A stretch of 64,000 nt of DNA from positions 124,001 through 188,000 of the forward strand of contig JAVZVD010000003.1 of NCBI GenBank assembly GCA_038878695.1, given 5' to 3'. Positions within the stretch are counted from its first letter, which is position 1; each line of letters begins with the position of its first letter. The DNA comes from Fervidicoccaceae archaeon. GTDB lineage: Archaea; Thermoproteota; Thermoprotei_A; Sulfolobales; Fervidicoccaceae. This document shows, piece after piece, positions 3 to 12,886 of this stretch. Position numbers and translations under genes: made by a program. The notes below the pieces were generated by a model. It worked only from the letters and a program-made list of their open reading frames with translations, had not been told where the DNA came from and did no database searches.

Positions 3-959
3 TCCACGCCGTCGGAGGGCGGACACGACGCTAACAAATCATACGTAGAAGTGCCTGCCATACTGCCAGAGAAGATACAGGCGAAGCTCAGGAGGAGGAT
101 GCTGGAAATACTAAGGAGCGAGTTCAACGATGAAGTCAAGAAGCAGGTGAAGAGGTACAGGGAGCTAGGGTTCAATAAGTTGGGAGAGGACGGCTCCTGG
201 AACTGCTTCATCATGCCCCCCAGCGGTGAGGGAGAGACAGACCTAGGGATGTGCGGGTTCTGCCCGGCGTGCAACATCCTCGGAGCGATAATAACAGAGA
301 ATGAACACGGGCTTGCATCGACATCGTACGGCATCAAGAGCAGAGTGGTCCACGACATAGCGTTCGCCACGGTTCCCTACGAGAAGTGCGTAGTCGAGTT
401 AACTCATAATAAGGTCGGCGATGGGGTGAGCTACACCGGTAGGAGCTTATACGAGGAGCCTCACATAGTGCCAGGGACCGTCTTCGTAGGTAAGCTCGCG
501 ATGTACGATGTCACGGAGAGGGAGGCGAAGCTAGTGCTACACTCGCTGGCGACGATAAGCAGGATGGGGGGCGGTGAAACGAAGTACGGCTCCGTGCAGG
601 TGATAATCGTTGGGCTGAGAGCGGGCGATAGGGAAACCATTAGCAGCTACGATATAGCTAGACACGTACTGGAGAAAACCGGAGGCGCGCTGGTCGAGCC
701 AGAGGTGGTTGTCAAGGAGGTTGCTAACTACATAAAGGGTAAGGGGTTTGATGTCGTGATCGACGAAAAGGCGGGGATCGACAGCCTAGACACGGTGGCG
801 GCCGTCTCTGACGATGAGATAGCTAAAATATGGGGAGAGGACAACTACTGGTACTCTGACAACGTAGTAAAGTATATCGCTAGAGCAGAGCCCAAGACAG
901 GGAAAGGCGGGAAGAAGGAGAAGAAGTCTAAGGGAAAAGGTAAAGAGGAGGCTCGATGA
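3..959 (+). CDS. csc2: Type I-D CRISPR Cascade backbone protein Csc2 (Cas7), 5' truncated
   Basis: Csc2 is the Cas7-family backbone subunit that polymerises along the crRNA in subtype I-D effector complexes. Visible features are a Cys cluster (C68, C71 and C74, counted from the GTG at 51) and the family-like stretch GETKYGSVQVIIVGL, which matches the conserved Csc2 core. The C-terminus is a Lys/Glu-rich tail. The reading frame stays open to the first base of the window. Known Csc2 proteins carry about 40-50 residues before the Cys cluster that are not covered by a GTG-51 start, so that GTG is probably internal and the gene is cut by the window edge. It overlaps csc1 by ATGA, implying translational coupling. 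Identification is by recalled family resemblance plus locus context. Confidence 0.85.
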   Translation, partial: STPSEGGHDANKSYVEVPAILPEKIQAKLRRRMLEILRSEFNDEVKKQVKRYRELGFNKLGEDGSWNCFIMPPSGEGETDLGMCGFCPACNILGAIITENEHGLASTSYGIKSRVVHDIAFATVPYEKCVVELTHNKVGDGVSYTGRSLYEEPHIVPGTVFVGKLAMYDVTEREAKLVLHSLATISRMGGGETKYGSVQVIIVGLRAGDRETISSYDIARHVLEKTGGALVEPEVVVKEVANYIKGKGFDVVIDEKAGIDSLDTVAAVSDDEIAKIWGEDNYWYSDNVVKYIARAEPKTGKGGKKEKKSKGKGKEEAR

Positions 960-1678
960 TCGCCAACGAGAGGTACAGCGTCGATGAGCTGAGGTTCTAC
1001 GTAGTGGAGTTAGAGCTACACAGCATCATGTGGTTCTCAACCATAGCCCAGCCGCACCTCAAAACCTTCGTCCAGACGCCGCTACCATTGGTGCACAACT
1101 ACCCTCTGGTGCTGGCGCTACAGGGACAAATAGTCGAGGGGTCGTACATTTCTAAGTACAACGAGTACAAGAGGGTTGGACCGCCGTCTACCATGTTCTC
1201 GGAGGCGATGGTTTATGCCTACCCGATGCTACTCGATAGAGTGTTCTACAAGAAGCTTCTGCTGAGCATGTCCGAGTCCGACTACCTGGTCTACAAACAG
1301 CAGACAAGGCTAGCCGTACCTATCATGGCTACGTACAATGCCTTCGCCCCGGGCACGAGAGGTAAAACTGTGGTCGTGGTCCCGAGGGACAGAGGGCTAC
1401 CCAGGGAGCTCTACCTGAGACTCGGGGCAAAGAGGTACGGCGTGTGGAGGACAACCTACGTCCAGGAAGCACGTGTCGAAGCAGTGGACCGCCCCGTAGC
1501 CGTGTCCTCGCCTTTCAACGTAGCCGATGTCCCGCCCGAGACCGTGAGTAGCAGTCTCGTCGTGCTCAAGCACTATGCTGGAGACATAGCCTTATCCGGG
1601 GTCTTCACCAAAGCTCTCGAGATACGCACCAATAGGGAGAGGATCCTCAAGCCCATACCCTTTTTCATCTCCACCTAA
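956..1678 (+). CDS. csc1: Type I-D CRISPR protein Csc1 (Cas5)
   Basis: Csc1 is the Cas5-family subunit that caps the 5' handle of the crRNA in subtype I-D complexes. The 240-residue product has the early IMWFSTIAQPHLKTF segment and an aromatic-rich middle typical of Csc1. The usual length is about 220-260 residues. The ATG overlaps the csc2 stop (ATGA) and cas3 follows 18 bp after its own stop, so all three are likely one transcript. Neighbours on both sides belong to the same subtype, which supports the call. No odd features are visible. Confidence 0.85.
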   Translation: MIANERYSVDELRFYVVELELHSIMWFSTIAQPHLKTFVQTPLPLVHNYPLVLALQGQIVEGSYISKYNEYKRVGPPSTMFSEAMVYAYPMLLDRVFYKKLLLSMSESDYLVYKQQTRLAVPIMATYNAFAPGTRGKTVVVVPRDRGLPRELYLRLGAKRYGVWRTTYVQEARVEAVDRPVAVSSPFNVADVPPETVSSSLVVLKHYAGDIALSGVFTKALEIRTNRERILKPIPFFIST

Positions 1679-1696
1679 TCGTGGAGGCGCTTTTCC

Positions 1697-3895
1697 GTGT
1701 ACGAGCACGAGGTCATGCTCACCCCCGTCTACGTTGAATCGTCCAGCGAGCAACTCGGCGATATAAGAGTTAGAAAGTTTCAGAAAGAGGTAGCCGACGT
1801 CACGGACGGGTTCGTGGTTCTATCCGCCCCCACAGGCTCCGGTAAAACGGCGACGCTCCTAACGGACGGGGAGCGCGGCGTATCGATTGGGCTGTACCCC
1901 AGTAACGAGTTACTGCGTAGCCAGGTGGCGGGGTTGCACAACTTCATCGTGAACCACATCGGGATGCAACCAAAGGAAACGCTGCTCTACGACTACTGCA
2001 GGACCGGAGCTGTTCCTGAAAACTACGTCCCGATGAACATCTACGTGTCTGACAGAAGCGTTGACCTGTTCGGCAGACGAGTCAGCAAGGTATATATTGT
2101 CGGGATGAGCGGGGACGTGGTCAAGGCGGTAGCCGACCGCGGCAAGCTCGACGTACTGATAGAGGCCTCGGACAGGCTGGCGAGCATAAGTGAAGACGGA
2201 TACGTCGTCGTCCTAGCCACCCCGGATACCTTCTTCCTGCTCACACTCTACGCTTACCGCAACATCGACCTCGCAGGCAGGCTCATCCACCACGTTCTAC
2301 TTAGAGGAGAGCTACCGCGTAGCTACGAAGAGTTCGACGAGCTAATGAGGAGGCTGGGCATGAGTAGAGCCGAGCTCGAGAAGATGGTCAGAGCCTTCCT
2401 CCCCTGCAGAAGGTCGTCGCTGTTCATCGACGAATACCACCTGTACGGCTACTATGAGCTGTCGTCGTTCAAGGCTCTACTCTACACGCTGACCACCGTG
2501 CGCGGATGGAGCGGGAGGGTAATCCTATCGTCGGCCACACCCAGCACGGACTTCCAGGAGGAGCTAGCAAAAGAGGTGGGTATGGCGCCTGTTCACCGTA
2601 TCGATGGGCTCAGGTACGTTAAGGAGAGAGGGGATGCGGACGAGCTGGTCAGAGGACCAATTAAGCTGGTCTTCGCGGAGGTGGGCGAAGATGGGGGAAA
2701 CCAGATCGCTAGGCTCTACGGTGCGAGCAGGCGAGCCTACGAACTGATATCGACGCCGAGGTTCAGGAAGTTCGTAGAGAAGCTTAAAGAGGGTCGCGGC
2801 AAGGGGGCGGTCATACTCGAAAAGGTATCACACGCAGAGGTCTTTGCGGAGAAGCTGTACAGCGAAACCGGGGTTAAGCCGATATGTCTGTACTCGATGC
2901 CACGTGAAGACGTATGCGAGGAGGTGCCTGCATACGAAGTTAGCGGAAGCCTACTCGTGGTCGGAACCGGCGCTAAAATAGGGCAGGGCGTCGAGTTCCC
3001 GGGAGTCTCCTTTGGTGTGGTGGCTAGAGTCTCGGCTGTAGACTTCCTTCAGTCGATCAGTAGGGTAGGTAGGAGGCTTAGAGAGGAGAGCACGGTTCTC
3101 GTGCCAATGGCAGAGAAGGAGCTTGAGGGCGTAGCGGAGGACAGCGTTTTCGCGAAGAAGAAGGTGAGCTACTATGAGCTAGCCGAGTGGGCTGAGAAGA
3201 CAGGGAAACCGCTCATGAGGAAGATACCGACAGGCTACGAAACGGTGTACCGTGGAATAATATCCGTGAGGGAGAGCGTGTTGAAGCTCATCGGGTTAGC
3301 CCTCCACTTCAGACTCTCGGGCGCAAGATACGGAGATATAGCGAGCCACGCCGAAAAACTACGCACCTCACTACAGAACCTGAGAATCATTGCGGCCCCG
3401 GACCACGTGGGCACCCTGCTGATGTTCAGGTCCTCCGGTCCGAGCGTAACCTACTGCCGCGAGATCCAGGGCGAGGTTAAGTGCTATAGCAGAGGCGAGG
3501 ACCTCGGGACACTAATAAGGAACTATGAGGTCACGGCTTACAACGGGTACCCGCTTATCAAGAGCATCGGCAGAAGCGAGATAAGGATCAAGTGCAATGG
3601 GGATAGGGCTGACGATTTGAGACGCTTCGTTGAGAGAGGAGAAGAGAGGATGACGCCGAAGGCCCCGATAATCATCGACTGGCTCACGCTCAGAGACCTG
3701 TTCCAATGCCGCCTCGCGGTCTACAACGGTCCCGGAGAGCCTGAAGAGCTGGGGCGCCTCAGCAGGGAGCTGGAGAACCAGCTATTCCTTATTCCAAGCA
3801 CTACGAGCGACGACCTCGGTGAATACATTTACAGAGCTGGGAAGGGGTTGAGGGTTAAGCTGAACAAGGGCTCTATCATCCTGCTCTACTTATAG
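1697..3895 (+). CDS. cas3: Type I-D Cas3 helicase (Cas3', no HD domain)
   Basis: Superfamily-2 helicase that unwinds target DNA after recruitment by the I-D effector. The 732-residue product shows Walker A APTGSGKT (residues 44-51), a Walker B variant DEYH (about 245-248), motif III SSATPS (about 277-282) and motif VI QSISRVGRR (about 451-459). No HD nuclease domain is visible. This is expected, because in subtype I-D the HD nuclease is on Cas10d (Csc3), which should lie upstream of this window. It starts at GTG after a GGAGG Shine-Dalgarno and is followed 13 bp later by cas2. The C-terminal 250 residues are not recognised beyond being typical of this family. Confidence 0.9.
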   Translation: MYEHEVMLTPVYVESSSEQLGDIRVRKFQKEVADVTDGFVVLSAPTGSGKTATLLTDGERGVSIGLYPSNELLRSQVAGLHNFIVNHIGMQPKETLLYDYCRTGAVPENYVPMNIYVSDRSVDLFGRRVSKVYIVGMSGDVVKAVADRGKLDVLIEASDRLASISEDGYVVVLATPDTFFLLTLYAYRNIDLAGRLIHHVLLRGELPRSYEEFDELMRRLGMSRAELEKMVRAFLPCRRSSLFIDEYHLYGYYELSSFKALLYTLTTVRGWSGRVILSSATPSTDFQEELAKEVGMAPVHRIDGLRYVKERGDADELVRGPIKLVFAEVGEDGGNQIARLYGASRRAYELISTPRFRKFVEKLKEGRGKGAVILEKVSHAEVFAEKLYSETGVKPICLYSMPREDVCEEVPAYEVSGSLLVVGTGAKIGQGVEFPGVSFGVVARVSAVDFLQSISRVGRRLREESTVLVPMAEKELEGVAEDSVFAKKKVSYYELAEWAEKTGKPLMRKIPTGYETVYRGIISVRESVLKLIGLALHFRLSGARYGDIASHAEKLRTSLQNLRIIAAPDHVGTLLMFRSSGPSVTYCREIQGEVKCYSRGEDLGTLIRNYEVTAYNGYPLIKSIGRSEIRIKCNGDRADDLRRFVERGEERMTPKAPIIIDWLTLRDLFQCRLAVYNGPGEPEELGRLSRELENQLFLIPSTTSDDLGEYIYRAGKGLRVKLNKGSIILLYL

Positions 3896-3908
3896 AGCGA
3901 GTGATAGG

Positions 3909-4190
3909 ATGTATGTCATCGTCGCCTTTGACGTCTCGGACGAACGCGTGCGGGGACGCCTACGCAGGTTCCTCAGGTTTCTCGGTCTATCGATGGTCAA
4001 TAGAAGCGTCTACGCCGGCGTCGGGGGACAAAGCATCGTGGAAAAAATTCGGGAGAAAGCTGGAGAGCTCGTTGGAGAACGCGATAGCGTGTTTATCGTC
4101 CTTGTACAGGAGCAGGAGTACATGCGGGCTGTTCTATGCACCAAGGTGGATTGCAAGAGGGTTGAGGACATCTCCTTCGAGGTCGTCTAG
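3909..4190 (+). CDS. cas2: CRISPR adaptation protein Cas2
   Basis: Cas2 is the dimeric structural core of the Cas1-Cas2 spacer integrase. The 93-residue product has the ferredoxin-like start MYVIVAFDVSDERVR with the conserved Asp at position 8, and the VNRSVYAG strand seen in Cas2 proteins. Length is normal for the family. It sits between cas3 and cas4 in the expected I-D order. The ATG at 3909 is preceded by a short purine-rich stretch. A longer overlapping frame from 3901 is only the upstream extension of the cas4 frame and is not coding in this part. Confidence 0.9.
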   Translation: MYVIVAFDVSDERVRGRLRRFLRFLGLSMVNRSVYAGVGGQSIVEKIREKAGELVGERDSVFIVLVQEQEYMRAVLCTKVDCKRVEDISFEVV

Positions 4191-4212
4191 CGTAGCGCAC
4201 CTCTCAGCCACG

Positions 4213-4809
4213 ATGCTCTCGTGGATGGCTAAGTGCCCTCTTGCTAAGAACATCGTGCTTTCATCGGCTGGCTCGCTCTCGTACACGACGCCTCACACGG
4301 TTGAAGAGATGAAGGGTAAGCACGACGAGCTAGTGAAAGTCTTAAGGAACGCTCTCGGCAACGCCTTCTTCTCGAAGCGTGTAAAGGCTCTCGAGCTAGA
4401 GCGGATGAAGCTGTGTCTCACGCTAACGCTGAAGGACTCCACCTACACGGTATGCGGGGTCCCCGACCTAATGTACCTCCTCTACGGCACAGAGCTAGAC
4501 GATCTAATCTTGGTTGTCGAGGCAACGCTCTCCCCCAGCACACGACACCTAATCTACGGAGAGATGCTGTTCTACTCCATAGCCGCATACATCTACTACG
4601 GTTGCAGAGTGGTGGGGCTAGTCGTTAACCCCAGACACGTCTACCTCGTTTCATTCAGAGAAAACGCCGTTAATCGCTTCAGAAGGCTTTTCTCGAGACT
4701 GAAGCACGAGAAAGCAGTAGAGCTATCTGAAAACAGGAGGGCGGAGCATCCGTGGATTTGTAGCTTGTGTGATTTAAAGCATTCATGCCCTCTAGGGAGT
4801 GAGGCTTGA
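4213..4809 (+). CDS. cas4: Cas4-family nuclease/adaptation protein, atypical active site
   Basis: Cas4 trims and selects prespacers with the correct PAM end. The product (about 198 residues from ATG 4213) carries the C-terminal cluster CSLCDLKHSC and an N-terminal Cys (MAKC), the four ligands expected for a 4Fe-4S cluster. The RecB-like nuclease motif II is seen as GVPDLMY. Motif III, normally Glu/Asp-x-Lys, reads VVEATLS, so the catalytic Lys is absent. ATG 4225 or TTG 4162 are alternative starts; the frame before 4162 overlaps cas2 and is not Cas4-like. It overlaps cas1 by TTGA. Confidence 0.8.
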   Translation: MLSWMAKCPLAKNIVLSSAGSLSYTTPHTVEEMKGKHDELVKVLRNALGNAFFSKRVKALELERMKLCLTLTLKDSTYTVCGVPDLMYLLYGTELDDLILVVEATLSPSTRHLIYGEMLFYSIAAYIYYGCRVVGLVVNPRHVYLVSFRENAVNRFRRLFSRLKHEKAVELSENRRAEHPWICSLCDLKHSCPLGSEA

Positions 4810-5780
4810 GAACGATCTTTATTAAGAACGCTGAGCTCGTGACCAGGAAAAGCCGTAGTAGCTTGATCATACATCGAAAAGACGGTACCTACAGAGAGGT
4901 GAATATTAGAGACATAGAGGCTGTTGTGGTCCTAGGAGCTACCACTAGAATAGACTGCGGAGTAGTTTCTCTACTCTCTAGGTATAACATTCCTTTGTCA
5001 ATAGTCAATAAGTTGGGTGTCTCCATTCTAACAGTTCCAGTAGTGACACTTTATAGTGAAACAAGACGTGCTCAGTACTCTTTGAGCGATGATGAGAAAG
5101 CTGAAATCATGCTGGAGATTCTGAAGGCTAAGTTCAGAGGCTTATCAAACATACTCAAATACCACGAGAAGAGCGCTCCGGAGGCGGATCTCGAGGAAGC
5201 AGTAGCGAAGAGAGACCTACTGCGCTGGGAGGCGACTGCGAGCCGCAGGTACTGGCAGCTAATGATAGACCTCATACCGAGTAACATACTCAACGAGCTT
5301 GAGAATAAGTACGAGTTTCAGGGTAGGAATCCACGCGCGAAAGACCCGTTTAATCAGTCCATATCGGCTCTGTACGCGGTTCTCTACTCCTTAAGCACTA
5401 GAGCGCTCCTCGCCAGCGGACTAGACCCCACATACGGGCTACATCATAAGACAAGGTACTCCGTCCCACTCGTCTACGACTATACCGAGATGTATAAACC
5501 GATAGCTGTGCACGCTGTGATCAGAGTACTTAGGAAGGCGGAGAAACTCCCAGTGTTAGATGAAGGCGGCTACTTAACTAAGGAATCCCTGAGCGTGATG
5601 TCGAAAGAACTATTCAATATACTGAATGCGAGAGTACGGGGAACGAGGATTACGCCGCATAGAGCTATCTACATCAACGCGATTAAACTCGCAACGAGAA
5701 TAAGGACAGGAAGCAGACAAGTACGCTACACTTACACGTACAACCCGAAAAAGATACTATACCATAACAGCAATAGATAG
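4806..5780 (+). CDS. cas1: CRISPR-associated endonuclease/integrase Cas1
   Basis: Cas1 is the metal-dependent integrase that inserts spacers at the leader end of the array. The 324-residue product has an N-terminal beta domain and a C-terminal helical catalytic domain. Candidate metal ligands are Glu in RWEATASRRYW, His in YGLHHKTRYS and Asp in LVYDYTEMYKP. The start is TTG, overlapping the cas4 stop (TTGA). The stop is 119 bp before the first CRISPR repeat, so the gene reads into the leader in the same orientation as the array. Codon use becomes more A/T-rich here than in csc1-cas3. Confidence 0.93.
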   Translation: MRTIFIKNAELVTRKSRSSLIIHRKDGTYREVNIRDIEAVVVLGATTRIDCGVVSLLSRYNIPLSIVNKLGVSILTVPVVTLYSETRRAQYSLSDDEKAEIMLEILKAKFRGLSNILKYHEKSAPEADLEEAVAKRDLLRWEATASRRYWQLMIDLIPSNILNELENKYEFQGRNPRAKDPFNQSISALYAVLYSLSTRALLASGLDPTYGLHHKTRYSVPLVYDYTEMYKPIAVHAVIRVLRKAEKLPVLDEGGYLTKESLSVMSKELFNILNARVRGTRITPHRAIYINAIKLATRIRTGSRQVRYTYTYNPKKILYHNSNR

Positions 5781-5899
5781 ACAACGGAGGTGAGCTACTC
5801 GCGTCGATTCTCGTGGGCGGGGCTCGCCCTCTCGCCCGAACCTCTATAAACCTTGGGTGAGAACGGGAGAGTAGATGAAAAGCGCCACGCGAGAGACCT
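5781..5899 (+). promoter_or_regulatory. CRISPR leader with TATA box
   Basis: Non-coding stretch between the cas1 stop and the first repeat. TATAAA at 5845-5850 sits about 50 bp before the first repeat, which would place transcription initiation near 5872-5878, shortly upstream of the array. The repeats end in CTAAAAG, and in crenarchaeal arrays that end forms the 8-nt 5' handle of mature crRNA. Transcription of the array to the right is therefore expected, and this side is the leader and integration end. Confidence 0.7.
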
Positions 5900-6952
5900 C
5901 GCAAAATAACAAAGAACTAAAAGCGCAACGTTAAGATAGTCTGTGCGGGGAACCCCCCGGCGCAAAATAACAAAGAACTAAAAGAGAATGATCTATGTGA
6001 CTTGCCCGAGCTGTCGCAAACGCAAAATAACAAAGAACTAAAAGATCATTGCCCGAGGATCCTCTCCCTCAGTCGAGAGACGCAAAATAACAAAGAACTA
6101 AAAGAGGAGATGGTCGGAGTGACCCCCATCGACTACGTAGTCGCAAAATAACAAAGAACTAAAAGTGCCTTGAAATACTTCCGGCAGCTCGGGCAGGTCA
6201 CGTCGCAAAATAACAAAGAACTAAAAGCTCAGCGTCAGCAAGATCAAATCGACGTCGCTAACTCTCGCAAAATAACAAAGAACTAAAAGCTAGGGAGGAT
6301 CACCTCCGCCTGGCCCGGGGGCCGCGCAAAATAACAAAGAACTAAAAGATGCTGATAGCACGGCATGGACGTGCTCCAGCTCCGGCGCAAAATAACAAAG
6401 AACTAAAAGTGGAGATCAAGAGGGCTCTCGAGGAGGGCAAGGATACGCAAAATAACAAAGAACTAAAAGCCCCTTATTCTTGTTTTTGAGGTTAATAAAC
6501 TTTTCCGCAAAATAACAAAGAACTAAAAGATAACGTTACTAGTTGGGCGGCTAGGTCGTTTACTCCGCAAAATAACAAAGAACTAAAAGAGAGCGCTCTC
6601 GGCCCCGAAGTGGTTGAGAGGATGACGCAAAATAACAAAGAACTAAAAGAGTTCGCGGGCGAACTCGAAGTGAGCTTCGAGGACTCGCAAAATAACAAAG
6701 AACTAAAAGCAGGGTAGGTTCCAGGGAGACAGAGTCGTAACGGGAGTCGCAAAATAACAAAGAACTAAAAGAGTTCGAACTCCCCCCACCGGGGGACCTG
6801 GACTTGGGCGCAAAATAACAAAGAACTAAAAGATCTTCTCGTCGCTACCATCGAGGTCTACCACGAACGCAAAATAACAAAGAACTAAAAGTATTATTCC
6901 CCCGCTTTATATTATTATGTGTACAAGTCGCAAAATAACAAAGAACTAAAAG
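5900..6952 (+). CRISPR. CRISPR array 1: 18 identical 24-bp repeats, 17 spacers
   Basis: Repeats begin CGCAAAATAACAAAG and end AACTAAAAG (24 bp). They start at 5900, 5961, 6021, 6081, 6142, 6204, 6266, 6325, 6386, 6446, 6506, 6566, 6626, 6686, 6748, 6809, 6868 and 6929. All copies read as identical, including the last one, so no decayed terminal repeat marks the distal end. Spacers are 35-38 bp. The array directly follows the I-D cas1 gene and its leader, so it is most likely served by this adaptation set. Predicted crRNA 5' handle is ACTAAAAG. Confidence 0.98.
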
Positions 6953-7095
6953 ATGGGGCTTGCGCGGAGAATCGCGAAGCAATCAGAAAAGACTGAAAGC
7001 GTTGGAGCGTGTATCTTGAGCCTCTCCCTGAAGCAGGTTACACCTCTTACGCCCTCGAAGAACTTCTCGAGAGTTCTCTCAACTTCCTCGCTCAC
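6946..7095 (-). CDS. Possible small or truncated ORF reading through a CRISPR repeat
   Basis: From GTG at 7095, preceded by GGGAGG six bases upstream, a 49-codon frame reads VSEEVERTLEKFFEGVRG and continues through the lone family-2 repeat. It stops in the last array-1 repeat. The first 32 residues have the charged, helix-forming composition of a real protein; the remainder is merely repeat and spacer DNA. It follows the two minus-strand genes to its right with a 41-bp gap, so it may be the surviving 5' end of a third gene of that block. A chance frame is also possible. Confidence 0.25.
   Translation of the reverse strand: MSEEVERTLEKFFEGVRGVTCFRERLKIHAPTLSVFSDCFAILRASPIF
6976..6999 (+). CRISPR. 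Isolated repeat of the second CRISPR family
   Basis: A single 24-bp repeat starting GAAGCAATCAG and ending GACTGAAAG. It is identical to the repeats of array 2 at 8286-8613 and lies in the same orientation. It is only 23 bp from the last array-1 repeat, a gap shorter than any spacer in either array. On its other side 1286 bp of gene-bearing DNA separate it from the next copy. Confidence 0.9.
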
Positions 7096-7136
7096 CGAGA
7101 CCCTCCCCGAGCGGGGTGTACTTTAATTAAGAAGTA

Positions 7137-7583
7137 TTACGACTGCCCTGCGGTGCTGCTTTGATCGATGTCTTCGTCCATCTGGTAGCTGTCCAGCAGC
7201 GGCGACTTAACGCGTATCCCGTGCTCATCGAGGAACCTCTTGGCTATCTTCCCCTCTCTGATCACGTGCTCGAGATAAGCTATGTCCTCCGGCGTCAGCT
7301 TATCCCCCTCCTCCTTCATTATCCTTATAGCTGCCTCAGCGCTCCTAACGGCTGCAGTGTACAGCCCAGCTATGAACGGCCCCACTCTGCCCTCACCCTT
7401 CGTCGCAACGTTGTCCGTTGGTATCCCATGTATCATCTGCTTTCTCCCGACCTTGAACCAGAGGTCCACGAGGGTCTTTATCGCGTCGTCGAACGTCAGG
7501 CGCTTACCGCAGTCCGCGGTGAGCTCTCCGAGGACCCTGGCGAGCGCCTTGTACGTCTCATCCTTAAGCTTAATGGTCTTCAT
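7137..7583 (-). CDS. Ribbon-helix-helix (VapB/CopG-like) protein
   Basis: The 148-residue product begins MKTIKLKDETYKALARVLG followed by a predicted helix-turn-helix-length segment (to about residue 42). This is the pattern of archaeal VapB/CopG-type ribbon-helix-helix DNA-binding domains. The remaining 100 residues (helical, then a polar tail) are not recognised. No PIN-domain toxin lies beside it; the upstream partner is the acidic protein at 7650-8243, 66 bp away. The ATG has GGTGGTGG just upstream and a TTTTTAAA stretch at about 7595-7602. The gene lies between two identical CRISPR repeats, so it may be part of a transferred cassette. Function beyond likely DNA binding is unknown. Confidence 0.6.
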   Translation of the reverse strand: MKTIKLKDETYKALARVLGELTADCGKRLTFDDAIKTLVDLWFKVGRKQMIHGIPTDNVATKGEGRVGPFIAGLYTAAVRSAEAAIRIMKEEGDKLTPEDIAYLEHVIREGKIAKRFLDEHGIRVKSPLLDSYQMDEDIDQSSTAGQS

Positions 7584-7649
7584 TCCACCACCAGGTTTAA
7601 AAAGTGGAAAGAGGGGAAAAAAGGCGTTTGGGTTCGGAGCTAGCGGCGG

Positions 7650-8243
7650 TCATCCGTAGTCGTCCATGTACGAGTAGAACTCCACTTCGCGATTGCAGCG
7701 CTCGCACGCGAGCTTGTACTCCCAGCTCTCGGCGTTCTCGCGTTTTGGCACCGCTCGCCAGTAGCCCGGCAGATCGTCGTCCTCTTCAACTTCTCCCTCC
7801 GAGTCGTCGTCAGATGCTACTCGGAGCTCGCCGCGGTCGATGTAAACGGTTGTGCAGCCGCAGGACGCCCTCACGCTGCACATCGCGTCGTAGAAGTCGT
7901 ATTCGTCGACCGCCAGCTTGAAGAACCGGGGCTTCGTGTACCCGCCGCGCACGTCGCATCCGTTGTGCACCTGCAGCATCACGTAGTAGTCATCGCCAAC
8001 CTTGAATGTTATTCCCTGTAGAACCTGCGACAGCAGGTTGCACTCGAAGTTGTAGGTGTTCCAGTGCCCCAGCACCTCGTATCCGTACTTCTCCCCGAGG
8101 ACTTCGTCAGCGAATTCCTGCATTAGTGTGAACCACGATCCGTCCCTGCTTTCCGCAAACTTGTAGAACTCCTTTTCAAGCTCCTCACACATCTCGTCCC
8201 TGTCGAGTGCCCAGGTCAGGAAGTGGAAGACGCTTATCTCCAC
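7650..8243 (-). CDS. Hypothetical acidic protein with Cys pairs, between CRISPR repeats
   Basis: Not recognised. The 197-residue product is rich in Asp, Glu, Tyr and Cys, with an Asp/Glu run around residues 145-156. A CGC pair lies at mid-protein and CERC near the C-terminus, so a small metal site is possible. No signal peptide or membrane segment is seen. The GTG start at 8243 is preceded by GGAAGGATGG. It is the first gene of the minus-strand pair lodged between family-2 CRISPR repeats at 6976 and 8286. High acidity and this location would fit a virus- or plasmid-derived protein, for example a DNA-mimic inhibitor, but that is speculation from composition only. Confidence 0.55.
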   Translation of the reverse strand: MEISVFHFLTWALDRDEMCEELEKEFYKFAESRDGSWFTLMQEFADEVLGEKYGYEVLGHWNTYNFECNLLSQVLQGITFKVGDDYYVMLQVHNGCDVRGGYTKPRFFKLAVDEYDFYDAMCSVRASCGCTTVYIDRGELRVASDDDSEGEVEEDDDLPGYWRAVPKRENAESWEYKLACERCNREVEFYSYMDDYG

Positions 8244-8285
8244 ATCTATCCATCCATCCTTCCACGCGGTTACCTCGACCGACGG

Positions 8286-8613
8286 GAAGCAATCAGAAAA
8301 GACTGAAAGAAGGGCATATTCCTCTTCCCGGTGGATTCCATCTCAATAGTCGTCGGCGAAGCAATCAGAAAAGACTGAAAGTTAATCGTCGAGCACAAGC
8401 GCTCGGCCTCCTCGGGCGAGTCGACGTACCTGTCGAGAAGCAATCAGAAAAGACTGAAAGTCGCACTCTCGGTTCGGAGAGAACATGCTAGAGTACGCGC
8501 TCGCGCTCGTCGCGAAGCAATCAGAAAAGACTGAAAGGAGGAGGCGTTCGGCAGCGTCAGCTACGACAGAGTCTCGCGGATCCTCAGGCGAAGCAATCAG
8601 AAAAGACTGAAAG
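8286..8613 (+). CRISPR. CRISPR array 2: five 24-bp repeats with long spacers
   Basis: Repeats (GAAGCAATCAG ... GACTGAAAG) start at 8286, 8358, 8437, 8514 and 8590. Spacers are 48, 55, 53 and 52 bp, clearly longer than those of array 1. The repeat differs from array 1 at many positions but keeps the AAAG end, so transcription to the right and a 5' handle ACTGAAAG are expected. No leader of its own is seen: to the left lies the acidic-protein gene and, further on, the lone repeat at 6976. No cas genes for this family are in the window. Confidence 0.96.
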
Positions 8614-8629
8614 GCATTGAGTTGGTAGT

Positions 8630-9373
8630 ATGTCGTTAGAAGAGATTGTGCTGATGAATTGCGGCCTCGCTGTTTTATCGCTACTCTCCGGCATGCTTGG
8701 TCTCGGTGTGGCATTTGCGGCAATTCCTTTTTTGAGCATTTTCTTAACTGATTTAGTTCGCGAGGTGCAGCCGCTGGCGTTGCTGTTGAACGGATTTACA
8801 GCATTATTCTCGGCCATCGGGTTCTCTAGGAGTGGGCTTGTCGAGTGGAAGAGGGCGCTGTTATTAGCCGTGGTCACTACTTCATCGGCGCCCGTAGGTT
8901 CCTTGCTAGTTATGTATGTACCGCAGGTATATGTGTGGATTAGTTACTTCATAGCTGTATCATATTTGGCTTATAGGTTGTTTAAACCTGTTAAGGCAGT
9001 ACCTAAGAATGAGAGGTACTTAATCGCATTGCTACTCGCCGTTCCCATATCGATGCTCTCGGGATTTCTGGGCGTGGGCCCCGGATTCCTCCTAATGCCG
9101 ACTTTGATCGTGGCCGGCTTCGAGCCTAAGAAGGCTGCGGGCATCAACGCGGTTGCGGTGTGCCCTCCCTCGTTCTCGGCGCTCATACCTAGGTTAGGCA
9201 GCATGTCGCTCGACGTAACTATGGTAGCTACGTTACTTATTGTTAGTACGGCGGCATCGTACGCGGGGGCTAGAATAACATCTAAGTACATATTAAGCAC
9301 TACGTTAAGGAAGCTCTTCGGGCTATTAATAGTAGTCATGACGTTATATAGATTGTTAACTTTATTAACTTAA
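8630..9373 (+). CDS. TauE/SafE-family membrane permease
   Basis: Predicted anion exporter of the TauE/SafE (sulfite/organosulfonate exporter) family in the cytoplasmic membrane. The 247-residue product shows about eight hydrophobic segments in two repeated halves. Each half has the family Gly-rich turn: SGMLGLGVAFAAIPF early and SGFLGVGPGFLLMPT in the second half. The substrate is not predictable. Base composition is noticeably more A/T-rich than its surroundings (many TTA and ATA codons), suggesting transfer. The ATG lies 17 bp after the last array-2 repeat with no TATA box of its own visible, so it may be read from the CRISPR transcript. Confidence 0.85.
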   Translation: MSLEEIVLMNCGLAVLSLLSGMLGLGVAFAAIPFLSIFLTDLVREVQPLALLLNGFTALFSAIGFSRSGLVEWKRALLLAVVTTSSAPVGSLLVMYVPQVYVWISYFIAVSYLAYRLFKPVKAVPKNERYLIALLLAVPISMLSGFLGVGPGFLLMPTLIVAGFEPKKAAGINAVAVCPPSFSALIPRLGSMSLDVTMVATLLIVSTAASYAGARITSKYILSTTLRKLFGLLIVVMTLYRLLTLLT

Positions 9374-9473
9374 TCATGAGACGGGCTCTAGACCTCTTCG
9401 AGTCAAAAGAGGCCGAGCAGGGATTCGGGGGATTGGAGCAGCGCCGTAGACCTCGCCTCGCTCTTCGCCAAGC

Positions 9474-9497
9474 GGAGCAAGTAGAAAAGACCGAGAG
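9474..9497 (+). CRISPR. Decayed copy of the family-2 CRISPR repeat
   Basis: The 24-bp stretch starting GGAGCAAGTAG and ending GACCGAGAG matches the array-2 repeat at 19 of 24 positions, including the contiguous core AGAAAAGAC, in the same orientation. Decayed repeats commonly mark the leader-distal end of an array. It lies 860 bp beyond the last intact repeat, on the far side of the TauE/SafE gene. A chance match cannot be excluded by eye. Confidence 0.45.
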
Positions 9498-9557
9498 CGC
9501 GCTCGGCTCTCGCTCTCGCGAGAGCCCCCCGGTCCGCGAAAGCGATCGAAAGACCAG

Positions 9558-9632
9558 CGGGCCCGCCGGGATTCGAACCCGGGGTCTCCGGCTCCGAAGG
9601 CCGGCGCCTTATCCTGGCTAGGCCACGGGCCC
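9558..9632 (-). tRNA. tRNA-Arg (anticodon TCG)
   Basis: A 75-nt cloverleaf on the minus strand. It has acceptor GGGCCCG/CGGGCCC, D stem GCCT/AGGC, anticodon stem CCGGC/GCCGG with loop CTTCGGA (anticodon TCG), T stem CCGGG/CCCGG with TTCGAAT, and discriminator G. No intron and no encoded CCA. It is a near twin of the tRNA at 24003-24077 but reads a different Arg codon. Confidence 0.95.
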
Positions 9633-9814
9633 CCTCCTCTCGGCGAGCCAGCGGGAAATCGGACCGAGGGCTCTCGCGGCCCGCGCCGTCGATCTATTAT
9701 CTTCGTTCGTATTTGAAGATTCGTGCTCAAAGCCTCGCGAAGAGCCGGCCGGGGGCGGCTTCCGCGTGGAACGCTTTTAATCCGTTCGCGAGGAGGCCTG
9801 ATAAGGAGCCGGTC

Positions 9815-10888
9815 GTGGCCCCCTGCCCGCTCATGCGCAGATACGAGGGCAATCCCGTGCTCGCGCCCAGGCCCGGCTGCTTCTGGGAAGCCGGGGGGAC
9901 GTTCAACCCGGCGGTCTTCAGATACGGCGGCAAAATCTACATGGTGTATAGACAGGTCTCGAGGAATTGCGTCTCGACTCTGGGCCTGGCCGTATCGAGG
10001 GACGGCTACGAATTCCTCGATAGAATGCCCCAGCCCGTCTACGTGCCGAGAGCCAGATTCGAGACGCACCCGGAGGCTCTGGGAGAGCTGCGCGGCAAGG
10101 ACTTCTGCTCCAGGGTGGCGAGCTTCAGACACGTCTCGGGGGCGAGCTGCTTCGGAGTGGAGGACCCGAGGATCGCGCTGATGAATAATAGGATTTACCT
10201 GACGTACGTGGCCTTCAACGGGGTGGACCCTCCCCGCGGCGCCCTCACGTGGATAGACGTCGTAGACTTTCTCAACGAGAGGTGGGACATGTGGGCCAAG
10301 CCGATCCCGGTCACGCACCCCAGCATACCTGACAAGAGCGTCGTGATGCTGCCGAGGAGAGTGAGGGGCAAGATCGCGTTCTTCCACAGGATATTCCCGC
10401 ACGTGTGGCTCGACTACGTCGACGACGTCTCGGAGCTGACGAGGAGGTACCTATGGGGTTACCCCGCCATAAGAACGAGGCCTCCGTCGTGGGACAGCAG
10501 GAAGATAGGCGTGGGCAGCGTCGTCGAGTGGGGCCCCTACTTCCTGGCGACGTACTACGGCGTGACCGGGTGGGACGACTACTACTACAGCGAGGGCCTG
10601 AGCCCGAGGGACTTCGCCGAGAGCGACGGCTACAGATACAAGATCGGCGTCATGGTACTCGACGGAGAGGACCCGTCGAGGGTGCTGTACAGATCGCCCG
10701 AGCCCGTCGCCGAGCCGGAGGCCTGGTACGAGCTCCACGAGCCCGTGACTCCCAACGTGATTTATCCCACGGGCTCTCTGCTCGAGGGAGAGAAGCTCCT
10801 CATTTACTACGGCGCCTCGGACTACTTCGTGGCTCTCGGGGAGCTAGACCTGGGCCCGCTGAGGGACGAGCTGTCGAGGGAGCTCTGA
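9815..10888 (+). CDS. GH130-type glycoside phosphorylase/hydrolase, paralog 1
   Basis: Five-bladed beta-propeller enzyme of the GH130 type. Characterised members phosphorolyse or hydrolyse beta-mannosides. The product (about 357 residues) has the N-terminal motif RYEGNPVLAPR, FNPAV, the catalytic-region motif VEDPRI, and the C-terminal YYGASDYFVALGEL blade. The frame is open back to a TTG at 9713. GTG 9815 is preferred because it has GGAG seven bases upstream, a TTTTAA box at about 9775, and gives the same short N-terminus as paralogs 2 and 3. First of three tandem genes. Substrate is unknown; phosphate-binding residues were not resolved by eye. Confidence 0.85.
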   Translation: MAPCPLMRRYEGNPVLAPRPGCFWEAGGTFNPAVFRYGGKIYMVYRQVSRNCVSTLGLAVSRDGYEFLDRMPQPVYVPRARFETHPEALGELRGKDFCSRVASFRHVSGASCFGVEDPRIALMNNRIYLTYVAFNGVDPPRGALTWIDVVDFLNERWDMWAKPIPVTHPSIPDKSVVMLPRRVRGKIAFFHRIFPHVWLDYVDDVSELTRRYLWGYPAIRTRPPSWDSRKIGVGSVVEWGPYFLATYYGVTGWDDYYYSEGLSPRDFAESDGYRYKIGVMVLDGEDPSRVLYRSPEPVAEPEAWYELHEPVTPNVIYPTGSLLEGEKLLIYYGASDYFVALGELDLGPLRDELSREL

Positions 10889-10956
10889 GGGCCTCCCGGC
10901 GAGCCCTCGCGCTTTTAGCTCGGGAGCTCTCAGTCGATCGACCGGAGGACTCGCTC

Positions 10957-11946
10957 TTGCTTAAGCTGAGGAGGCACGCGGGCAACCCGATCCTGACGCC
11001 GCGCGCGGATTTCTGGCTCGAGGGAGAGGCGGTGTTCAATCCGACGGTGATCAAGCGCGGCGAGAAGGTGGTGATGCTGTACCGCGCTCTATCGAGGCCT
11101 CTGCAAAGATCCCCCGAGGAGCATATCAAGATATCGACGATAATGAGAGCGGAGAGCTCGGACGGCGTGAGCTTCGAGCGGAGGGGGCTTTTCATCGGGC
11201 CCGAGCGGCCCTGGGAGGCCTACGCCACGGAGGACCCCAGGGTGACTCGAGTCGGCTCGACCTATTTCATCACGTACACGGCCGTCAGCAGGTGGCCCCC
11301 GAGGCCTGAGTCCGTGAGGCTCGCCCTGGCCCTCTCCGAGGACCTGGTCAAGTGCACGAAAGTCGGCGTGATTTGCCCCTACAACTCCAAAGCCGGCTTC
11401 GTCTTCCCGAGAAAATACGAGGGCCGCTACTTGATGGCTCTGACCCTGAACCCCGATAGACCCCCCTCCAGCGTAGTGCTCGTCGCGTTCGACGACGTGA
11501 GGGACCTGCTAGAGGAGGAATTTTGGAGAGGCGCTCTGAGCGAGGCTAAGGCGCTGCTGAGGGGGACGAGCGAGAAACCCTTCGTCGAATTGGGGACCCC
11601 TCCGCTCGAGGTCGACGACCACTGGCTCCTCTTCCTCCCGGATATACTCTACGAGAAGGGGCACTTCGTCGAGTTCAGCATCACCGCCGCGCTGCTCAGA
11701 GCGGATGACCCGAGCGAGCTCGTGGCTCTCTCGACTAGGCCTCTGCTGAGGCCCGAGCTGGAGTACGAGCTCACGCAGAACGCCTACCCGAGGGGGATCG
11801 CCTTCCCCTCGGGAGCTCTGCTGGTGGGCGACGAGGTCTGGGTCTACTACGGGGCCGCCGACAAGTACGTCGCGCTCGCTCGCGTAGAGCTCGCGCGGCT
11901 CCTGGACTATCTATTGAGGGAGTGTAGAGTTGGGCGCGCCGGTTAA
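10957..11946 (+). CDS. GH130-type glycoside phosphorylase/hydrolase, paralog 2
   Basis: Second tandem GH130-type beta-propeller (329 residues). Motifs in order: RRHAGNPILTPR, FNPTVIKRG, ATEDPRV, and the closing blade YYGAADKYVALARVEL. TTG 10957 is chosen as start because GGAGG lies nine bases upstream and the N-terminus then matches the paralogs. The frame runs open far upstream (to 10405), but that portion is antiframe to paralog 1 and not coding. It lies 68 bp after paralog 1 and overlaps paralog 3 by 17 bp, so all three are likely co-transcribed. It diverges most from the other two around the middle blades. Confidence 0.83.
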   Translation: MLKLRRHAGNPILTPRADFWLEGEAVFNPTVIKRGEKVVMLYRALSRPLQRSPEEHIKISTIMRAESSDGVSFERRGLFIGPERPWEAYATEDPRVTRVGSTYFITYTAVSRWPPRPESVRLALALSEDLVKCTKVGVICPYNSKAGFVFPRKYEGRYLMALTLNPDRPPSSVVLVAFDDVRDLLEEEFWRGALSEAKALLRGTSEKPFVELGTPPLEVDDHWLLFLPDILYEKGHFVEFSITAALLRADDPSELVALSTRPLLRPELEYELTQNAYPRGIAFPSGALLVGDEVWVYYGAADKYVALARVELARLLDYLLRECRVGRAG

Positions 11947-12886
11947 GCTCCAGAGGCACAAATCGAATCCCCTGCTGTCGCCCGACCCCGCGAGGCGGTT
12001 CAGGAGCAGCGCCGTCTTCAACGCCGGGGCGTTGATGCTTCGAGGCAAGATATATATATTGTACAGGGCGCAATCCGCGGACCTCACGTCGACCATAGGT
12101 CTCGCGGTGACGAGCGACGGCGTCTCGATAGAGGAGAACCTCGACGAGCCTATCTACGCGCCGAGAGAGGAGTTCGAGTCGAGGGTGCTCGGCGGCCCCG
12201 GCCCGGTGGGCTGCGAAGATCCGCGACTCACGATCTTGGACGACACGATCTACATGTTGTACACGGCCGTCAGCGACGCGTTCGATTACGTCAGGGTGGC
12301 CCTGACCTCGATACGCGTCGGCGAGTTCCTCGAGAGGAGGTGGTCGGCGTGGACTAAGCCGATCCTCGTGAGCCCGCCGGGCGTGTGGGACAAGAACGCC
12401 TGCCTCCTCCCCAAGAGGATTCAAGGTAGATACGTGGTGATACACAGATTCTTCCCGAGCATCTGGGTGGACTTCGTCGAGAGCCTAGACTTCGAGGGCT
12501 ATTGGGTCAGAGGATACGAGGTGATGAGGCCCAGGCCGAGGTCCTGGGACAGCGACAAGGTCGGCCTGGCCGGCGTGCCGGTTGAGACGAGCGAGGGCTG
12601 GGTCATGATATATCACGCGAGGAGCGCCTACGATGGGGCCTACAGGCTCGGCGCGGCCCTCTTGGATAGGGAGGACCCGACCACCGTGTTGGCGAGGCTC
12701 CCGTATCCTCTGCTAGAGCCGAGAGAGTGGTACGAAAGAGACGGAGGCGACATAGTGTTCTCCTGCGGTCACGTTATCCTCGACGGCAGACTCTACGTGT
12801 ACTACGGCGCCTCCGACAAATACCTAGCCGTGGCCTCCGTGGACTTCGGCGAGCTCGTGGGCGAGCTACTTAGATACGCTTCTTGA
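11930..12886 (+). CDS. GH130-type glycoside phosphorylase/hydrolase, paralog 3
   Basis: Third tandem GH130-type protein (318 residues). It shows RHKSNPLLSPD, FNAGALMLRGK, CEDPRLTILDD and a closing YYGASDKYLAVASVDF. The TTG start at 11930 overlaps the end of paralog 2. It is closest to paralog 1 in the mid-section (both have RPRSWDS/RPPSWDS followed by K-x-G-x-G/A), so 1 and 3 may share substrate specificity. No signal peptide: all three appear cytoplasmic, pointing to intracellular turnover of a mannose- or glucose-containing glycan or compatible solute. Confidence 0.85.
   Translation: MGAPVKLQRHKSNPLLSPDPARRFRSSAVFNAGALMLRGKIYILYRAQSADLTSTIGLAVTSDGVSIEENLDEPIYAPREEFESRVLGGPGPVGCEDPRLTILDDTIYMLYTAVSDAFDYVRVALTSIRVGEFLERRWSAWTKPILVSPPGVWDKNACLLPKRIQGRYVVIHRFFPSIWVDFVESLDFEGYWVRGYEVMRPRPRSWDSDKVGLAGVPVETSEGWVMIYHARSAYDGAYRLGAALLDREDPTTVLARLPYPLLEPREWYERDGGDIVFSCGHVILDGRLYVYYGASDKYLAVASVDFGELVGELLRYAS

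Follow-up and report, generated by a model that had tools for sequence, protein, structure and literature searches.

A TauE/SafE permease gene at the leader-distal end of a leaderless type I-D CRISPR array, possibly acquired at a repeat edge

The window analysed here, 64,000 nucleotides of a Fervidicoccaceae genome (G000, a five-contig assembly), harbors a type I-D CRISPR-Cas locus with two consecutive arrays and, just past the last intact repeat, an intact gene for a TauE/SafE permease. With moderate confidence, this permease is regarded as a mobile gene that resides in the oldest interval (8590-9474) of the second, leaderless relic type I-D array (array 2), where it would have arrived as a foreign block at the edge of a repeat. 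Oversized DNA flush with the repeats does occur in the family of arrays that share the array-2 repeat (repeat-2). For the permease itself such an entry is tentative, as a single decayed repeat next to a tRNA gene defines the right edge of its interval. A location in the oldest interval makes the permease either the first uptake event of the array or a later insertion.

As in the type I-D CRISPR-Cas systems of thermophilic archaea, Csc1 and Csc2 (Cas5d and Cas7d), Cas3d, Cas1 and Cas2 adjoin the repeat arrays of the locus (Table 1), which is accordingly assigned to this type. The leader sequence of array 1 also precedes a second, upstream array with the same repeat (window 5781-6975 and L049 12488-14850, respectively), and the intervals in the repeat-1 arrays of G000 range from 34 to 40 bp. 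Array 2 differs from array 1 in its repeat and is leaderless, as though array 1 with a newer leader had taken the place of its older leader; the 23-bp truncated spacer joins the two arrays. An assembly joining error at the 24-bp repeats of the locus may also have occurred.

Table 1. Features of the CRISPR-Cas locus and its surroundings (positions in the window).
Feature	Positions	Strand	Remarks
Whole type I-D cas gene set	51-5780	+	
csc2/cas7d	51-959	+	Pfam, PADLOC
csc1/cas5d	956-1678	+	Pfam, PADLOC
cas3d	1697-3895	+	Pfam, PADLOC
cas2	3909-4190	+	Pfam, PADLOC
cas4-like, putative	about 4191-4809	+	C-terminal cysteines by eye; no family match
cas1	4806-5780	+	Pfam, PADLOC
Array 1 leader	5781-5900	+	TATA box CTATAA at 5844
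Array 1	5901-6952	+	18 repeats CGCAAAATAACAAAGAACTAAAAG, spacers 35-38 bp
Truncated spacer linking array 1 to array 2	6953-6975	+	23 bp; from the sequence itself
Array-2 repeat, first copy	6976-6999	+	24/24
Oversized interval (cassette)	7000-8285		1286 bp, virus-like DNA; three minus-strand genes, outer two cut by repeats
ORF3′	7000-7095	-	Initial 32 codons, gene interrupted by the repeat at 6999; reading frame
ORF1	7137-7583	-	148 aa, no family match
ORF2′	7653-8285	-	211 codons, phrog_11344 family, cut at repeat
Five exact array-2 repeats	8286-8613	+	At 8286, 8358, 8437, 8514 and 8590; spacers 48, 55, 53, 52 bp
Gap, last intact repeat to permease ATG	8614-8629	+	16 bp, no TATA box
TauE/SafE permease, intact	8630-9373	+	247 aa; PF01925 E 2.6e-29, residues 14-240
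Gap, permease stop to decayed repeat	9374-9473		100 bp, no gene found
Probable decayed terminal repeat of array 2	9474-9497	+	GGAGCAAGTAGAAAAGACCGAGAG, 19/24
tRNA-Arg (TCG)	9557-9632	-	Downstream side faces array

The window contains six exact copies of the array-2 repeat GAAGCAATCAGAAAAGACTGAAAG, all perfect and all on the plus strand, which are separated by intervals of 1286, 48, 55, 53 and 52 bp and followed after 860 bp by the copy at 9474. The 19/24 similarity of this last copy in the same orientation, reported in a first-pass annotation of the DNA, was confirmed: apart from the six exact copies, no site in the window matches the repeat better, the runner-up scores being 15/24 (two sites) on the plus strand and 14/24 on the minus strand. 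Permuted repeats give an expected 0.002 matches of at least 19/24 per strand per 64 kb, and a match of this quality is therefore rare, albeit not astronomically so, because the backwards repeat as a composition-matched control attains 17/24 in the window. The background at five mismatches was measured on about 95 kb of G000 (the window and two other stretches, both strands), where matches of 17-18/24 are absent and scattered 19/24 matches, which had been named as the observation that would speak against a terminal repeat, did not appear either. The whole genome was searched to three mismatches and yielded one further copy, a solo 22/24 match on contig C2 (L045:5665-5688; G000:C2:171664) situated in an intergenic, low-complexity region.

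The 9474 element thus displays similarity above background, the same strand and a leader-distal position, as expected of a decayed terminal repeat; the normal spacing is absent, with 860 bp to the preceding repeat vs 48-55 bp elsewhere in array 2 (the 1286-bp interval apart). Four of ten sister arrays have a leader-distal repeat altered by one to four substitutions (20/24 in G011, 22/24 in both G117 and G084, 23/24 in G114), and several others finish in an intact terminal repeat. With array 2 and its 19/24 included the count is five of eleven, so that a decayed terminal repeat past the permease would represent common, though non-universal, behavior of the repeat-2 family. The decayed sister ends and the perfect state of the six other copies lend support to the annotated terminal repeat, and from this comparison we infer that 9474 is probably the old end of array 2, with the permease occupying its last interval.

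Alternatively, array 2 stops at 8613 with the permease merely following as its downstream neighbor, and the 9474 element is a chance likeness aided by a T-rich terminator of the tRNA-Arg gene. A hairpin with a T-run, located downstream of this gene on the minus strand, ends in the 9474 element and could be its terminator; the core AGAAAAGAC of the element reads GTCTTTTCT after the hairpin. Such a coincidence, which is considered somewhat unlikely, would agree with the presence of a single decayed copy and with the score that the backwards repeat reaches by chance. However, the terminator covers nine of the 19 matching positions, while AGCAA and the 3′ GA..AG match as well, and the expected count per strand per window is very low. 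Array 2 would then also be devoid of a decayed terminal repeat, although this holds for several sister arrays, too. An island inserted at tRNA-Arg was considered separately and discarded, as the matches near the locus revealed no second tRNA 3′ end. Beside tRNA-Arg (TCG) in G002 and G005, CRISPR and permease genes are absent.

The first interval of array 2 is likewise oversized. ORF2′ of this cassette matches phrog_11344 with an E value of 3.5e-18 (protein residues 11-148 on profile positions 63-202 of 273) as well as hypothetical proteins in 32 phage records. In comparison with four full-length phage proteins (alignment A1) the conserved N-terminal TENTGRH..LDSGGAYGR is missing; the homology starts at the repeat, and the gene is cut within 0-33 bp of the repeat at the right end of the cassette. 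At the left end, ORF3′ employs GTG as start codon and is without any homologue. Judging from these alignments, the cassette probably stems from the interior of a virus-like genome; it lies between two repeats, at the first (youngest-side) repeat of array 2. No relatives of the cassette genes were found in viral contigs, nor was the cassette found in other genomes of the order. ORF3′ and ORF2′ as the two halves of one gene from a small circle were ruled out, ORF3′ being without the motif that ORF2′ is missing, and the integration of a virus by crossover in a spacer was ruled out by the absence of any 8-mer common to both cassette ends. For the insertion of a transposon into a spacer, neither a transposase nor inverted ends or a duplicated target are present: apart from the repeat itself, the interval ends have no direct or inverted 8-mers in common, and no transposase is among the Pfam and PHROG matches of the ORFs in the oversized intervals.

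In other families of the order, type I-D loci use repeat-2 (G046, G114), and further arrays of it occur in G011, G031, G088 and G117. The 195 intervals in eleven repeat-2 arrays have a median length of 50 bp; eight measure 61-100 bp, three 101-200 bp and four more than 200 bp (309, 860, 1286 and 2091 bp), two of the latter belonging to array 2. With four intervals above 200 bp and more at 61-200 bp, these arrays thus control interval length loosely, and extreme lengths are rare. The origin of the 61-126 bp spacers from two spacers with a lost repeat in between fits G117 only (126 bp, repeat partly N-masked).

In G114 (L078), nucleotides 1-307 of the last, 309-bp interval align with one frameshift to an internal stretch of a primase/helicase gene; G111 has this gene in intact form, and it is related to Hyperthermophilic Archaeal Virus 2. 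The piece reaches within 2 bp of both repeats and leaves no spacer remnant because it fills the interval end to end. Flush at both ends, it is the cleanest evidence for oversized fragments. The 2091-bp interval of the same genome comprises three paralogous genes, the third of which is truncated at the repeat. These tandem paralogues (L078:6054-8144; 228, 223 and 219 aa) belong to no recognised family and have one weak relative in the order.

The permease itself matches PF01925 in full length (profile positions 6-236 of 237; 103 bits vs a cut-off of 32.6). Its ATG is separated from the last intact repeat by 16 bases (8613 to 8630) instead of the 17 annotated at first, and the reported lack of an own TATA box holds, no TATA-like hexamer being found in 8461-8640. 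The description of the gene as more A/T-rich than its neighbors applies to the GH130 genes on its right (GC 0.481 vs 0.62-0.63) but not to cas1 on its left (0.467), and A/T-richness was therefore dropped as a sign of foreign origin. The closest relatives are found in two other genera of the family, in G004 (65% identity, beside galE) and G003 (72%, N-terminal part lost), further ones of about 60% in one Thermodesulfobacteriaceae MAG and one Verrucomicrobiae MAG, and the rest of the order searched gave distant matches only (23-33%). The subfamily is patchy, and the permease is most likely a horizontally mobile, ordinary TauE/SafE gene. Close relatives do not lie inside or beside an array in the stretches examined, and viral contigs contain no relatives. 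The alignments with relatives stop within the gene and do not reach the edges of the permease interval.

The permease might also have been resident first, with array 2 placed or extended next to it. An intact, full-length gene whose family occurs in three of the five genera examined of the host archaeal family is in line with this order of events. The contexts of the relatives differ, however (galE in G004, elsewhere in G003), and are away from cas genes and tRNA-Arg; moreover, the 9474 copy beyond the gene is left unexplained. A resident permease is hardly credible. In the Verrucomicrobiae and Thermodesulfobacteriaceae MAGs (L050/L051), an FmdE-like gene (assigned by eye) comes after the permease relative, and the two might form a conserved pair. 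Further to the right in the window, three adjacent glycoside-phosphorylase-like genes (9713-12886; the first GH130 by Pfam, the others 39-43% similar to the first) form a trio that is almost missing from the rest of the host archaeal family.

According to the favored explanation, a foreign DNA block including the permease would have been joined at a repeat edge, most likely by the adaptation machinery integrating an oversized fragment or, alternatively, by recombination through the repeats. The same kind of joining may have taken place at the other end of array 2 (1286-bp fragment) and in G114 (309-bp and 2091-bp fragments). The adaptation route agrees with the cut genes and flush ends that the cassette and the G114 intervals show. 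In a homologous recombination, chromosomal repeats would have paired with a repeat or mini-array of a plasmid or virus, putting DNA of the element and the permease between repeats. Small CRISPR loci are indeed present on the Sulfolobales plasmids pNOB8 and pKEF9, and recombination between repeats occurs (PMC4390879); solo copies of the array-2 repeat are also scattered in relatives. Yet in both the cassette and the G114 intervals, genes break off precisely at the repeat, so that the donor would need a repeat inside its genes. Little credence is given to this route.

Since the permease is without its own promoter, its transcription would be part of that of the pre-crRNA, and Cas6, by cutting within the 8590 repeat, could free a permease message starting with ACUGAAAGGCAUUG, the 8-nt repeat handle. 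Expression from the array transcript, if there is any, is assumed because no TATA-like element is located upstream. In favor of capture, the 9474 element, just past the array and in the orientation of its repeats, far exceeds the background; terminal decay in sister arrays, the cassette gene cut at a repeat, the G114 blocks and the patchy occurrence of the permease point in the same direction. Against it, the permease is a whole gene while the other oversized intervals hold gene fragments, and the AGAAAAGAC part of 9474 could be the T-run of an opposite-strand tRNA terminator. Of the two captures originally proposed for array 2, that of the cassette stands as foreign, virus-like DNA cut at a repeat, whereas uptake of the permease hinges on a right edge formed by one decayed repeat.

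Copies of the repeats are also encountered outside of arrays. The coding sequence of G000 cas6 (L049:14854-15714, minus strand; G000:C3:119853-120713) contains on its sense strand two array-1-repeat-like copies, CACAAGATAACAAAGAACTAGAAG (21/24) and CACGAAATAACAAAGAACTGAGGC (18/24), in the same codon phase. Among synonymous recodings of cas6, 0.24% gave a 21/24 match and 0/5000 the two copies together, and Cas6 might possibly control itself by cutting its own mRNA. In G114, a repeat-2 copy (L083:8112-8135, 23/24 to the G114 repeat) extends across the stop codon of a large gene upstream of csc2, a putative cas10d in the type I-D cas operon, and ends at the start of the next gene; it is likely a Cas6 site within the cas mRNA. 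Solo or paired repeat-2 copies are scattered over L061, L062, L063, L064, L067 and L080 (G015, G088, G003). A leader-like sequence, AAAGCTTATAAACCC...GAATCAACGACTA|GAAGCAAT, is found upstream of the copies in G015 and in a looser form in G088 and G003, and these copies are possibly leader-plus-one-repeat mini-loci or crRNA-like regulators.

The oversized intervals suggest that repeat-2 arrays sometimes take up gene-sized DNA instead of short spacers. In a bolder reading, which is distinctly unlikely, loose length control lets repeat-2 type I-D arrays accept, in addition to spacers of about 50 bp, DNA of 0.3-2 kb flush between repeats; an adaptive-immunity locus could then capture whole genes, and array 2 would express a captured transporter from pre-crRNA after Cas6 cleavage. 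If the adaptation machinery does join kilobase DNA to repeats, genes could be taken up through CRISPR arrays, and how type I-D Cas1-Cas2 (with Cas4) measures length would become a testable question. Gene uptake at CRISPR repeats would echo casposon integration.

In the leaderless CRISPR locus F of S. solfataricus, two repeats flank an 899-bp fragment of a pNOB8-like plasmid (PMC4390879, section 4.5), and such array irregularities are very rare in Sulfolobales (PMC4390879). The cassette resembles it as gene-sized mobile-element DNA between repeats of a leaderless archaeal array; since the locus F fragment has already been described, the cassette adds another case to a known oddity, of which the permease is a variant. 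A dedicated site for gene integration, as which the repeat family had been proposed, is not borne out, given the rarity of oversized intervals (4/195) and this similar known case. In contrast to locus F, array 2 has a second, intact cellular-type permease gene in its last interval, and sister arrays with repeat-2 carry further oversized fragments. In the I-D loci of G046 and G114 repeat-2 is the working repeat, whereas in G000 the cas genes are followed by repeat-1 arrays with array 2 as a fused remnant. The decay at 9474 corresponds to the degenerate leader-distal repeats described for CRISPRDetect, where repeats decay at the 3′ end of the array (PMC4869251), but unlike the spacer-like long gaps considered there, the last interval of array 2, at 860 bp, contains a gene in place of a spacer.
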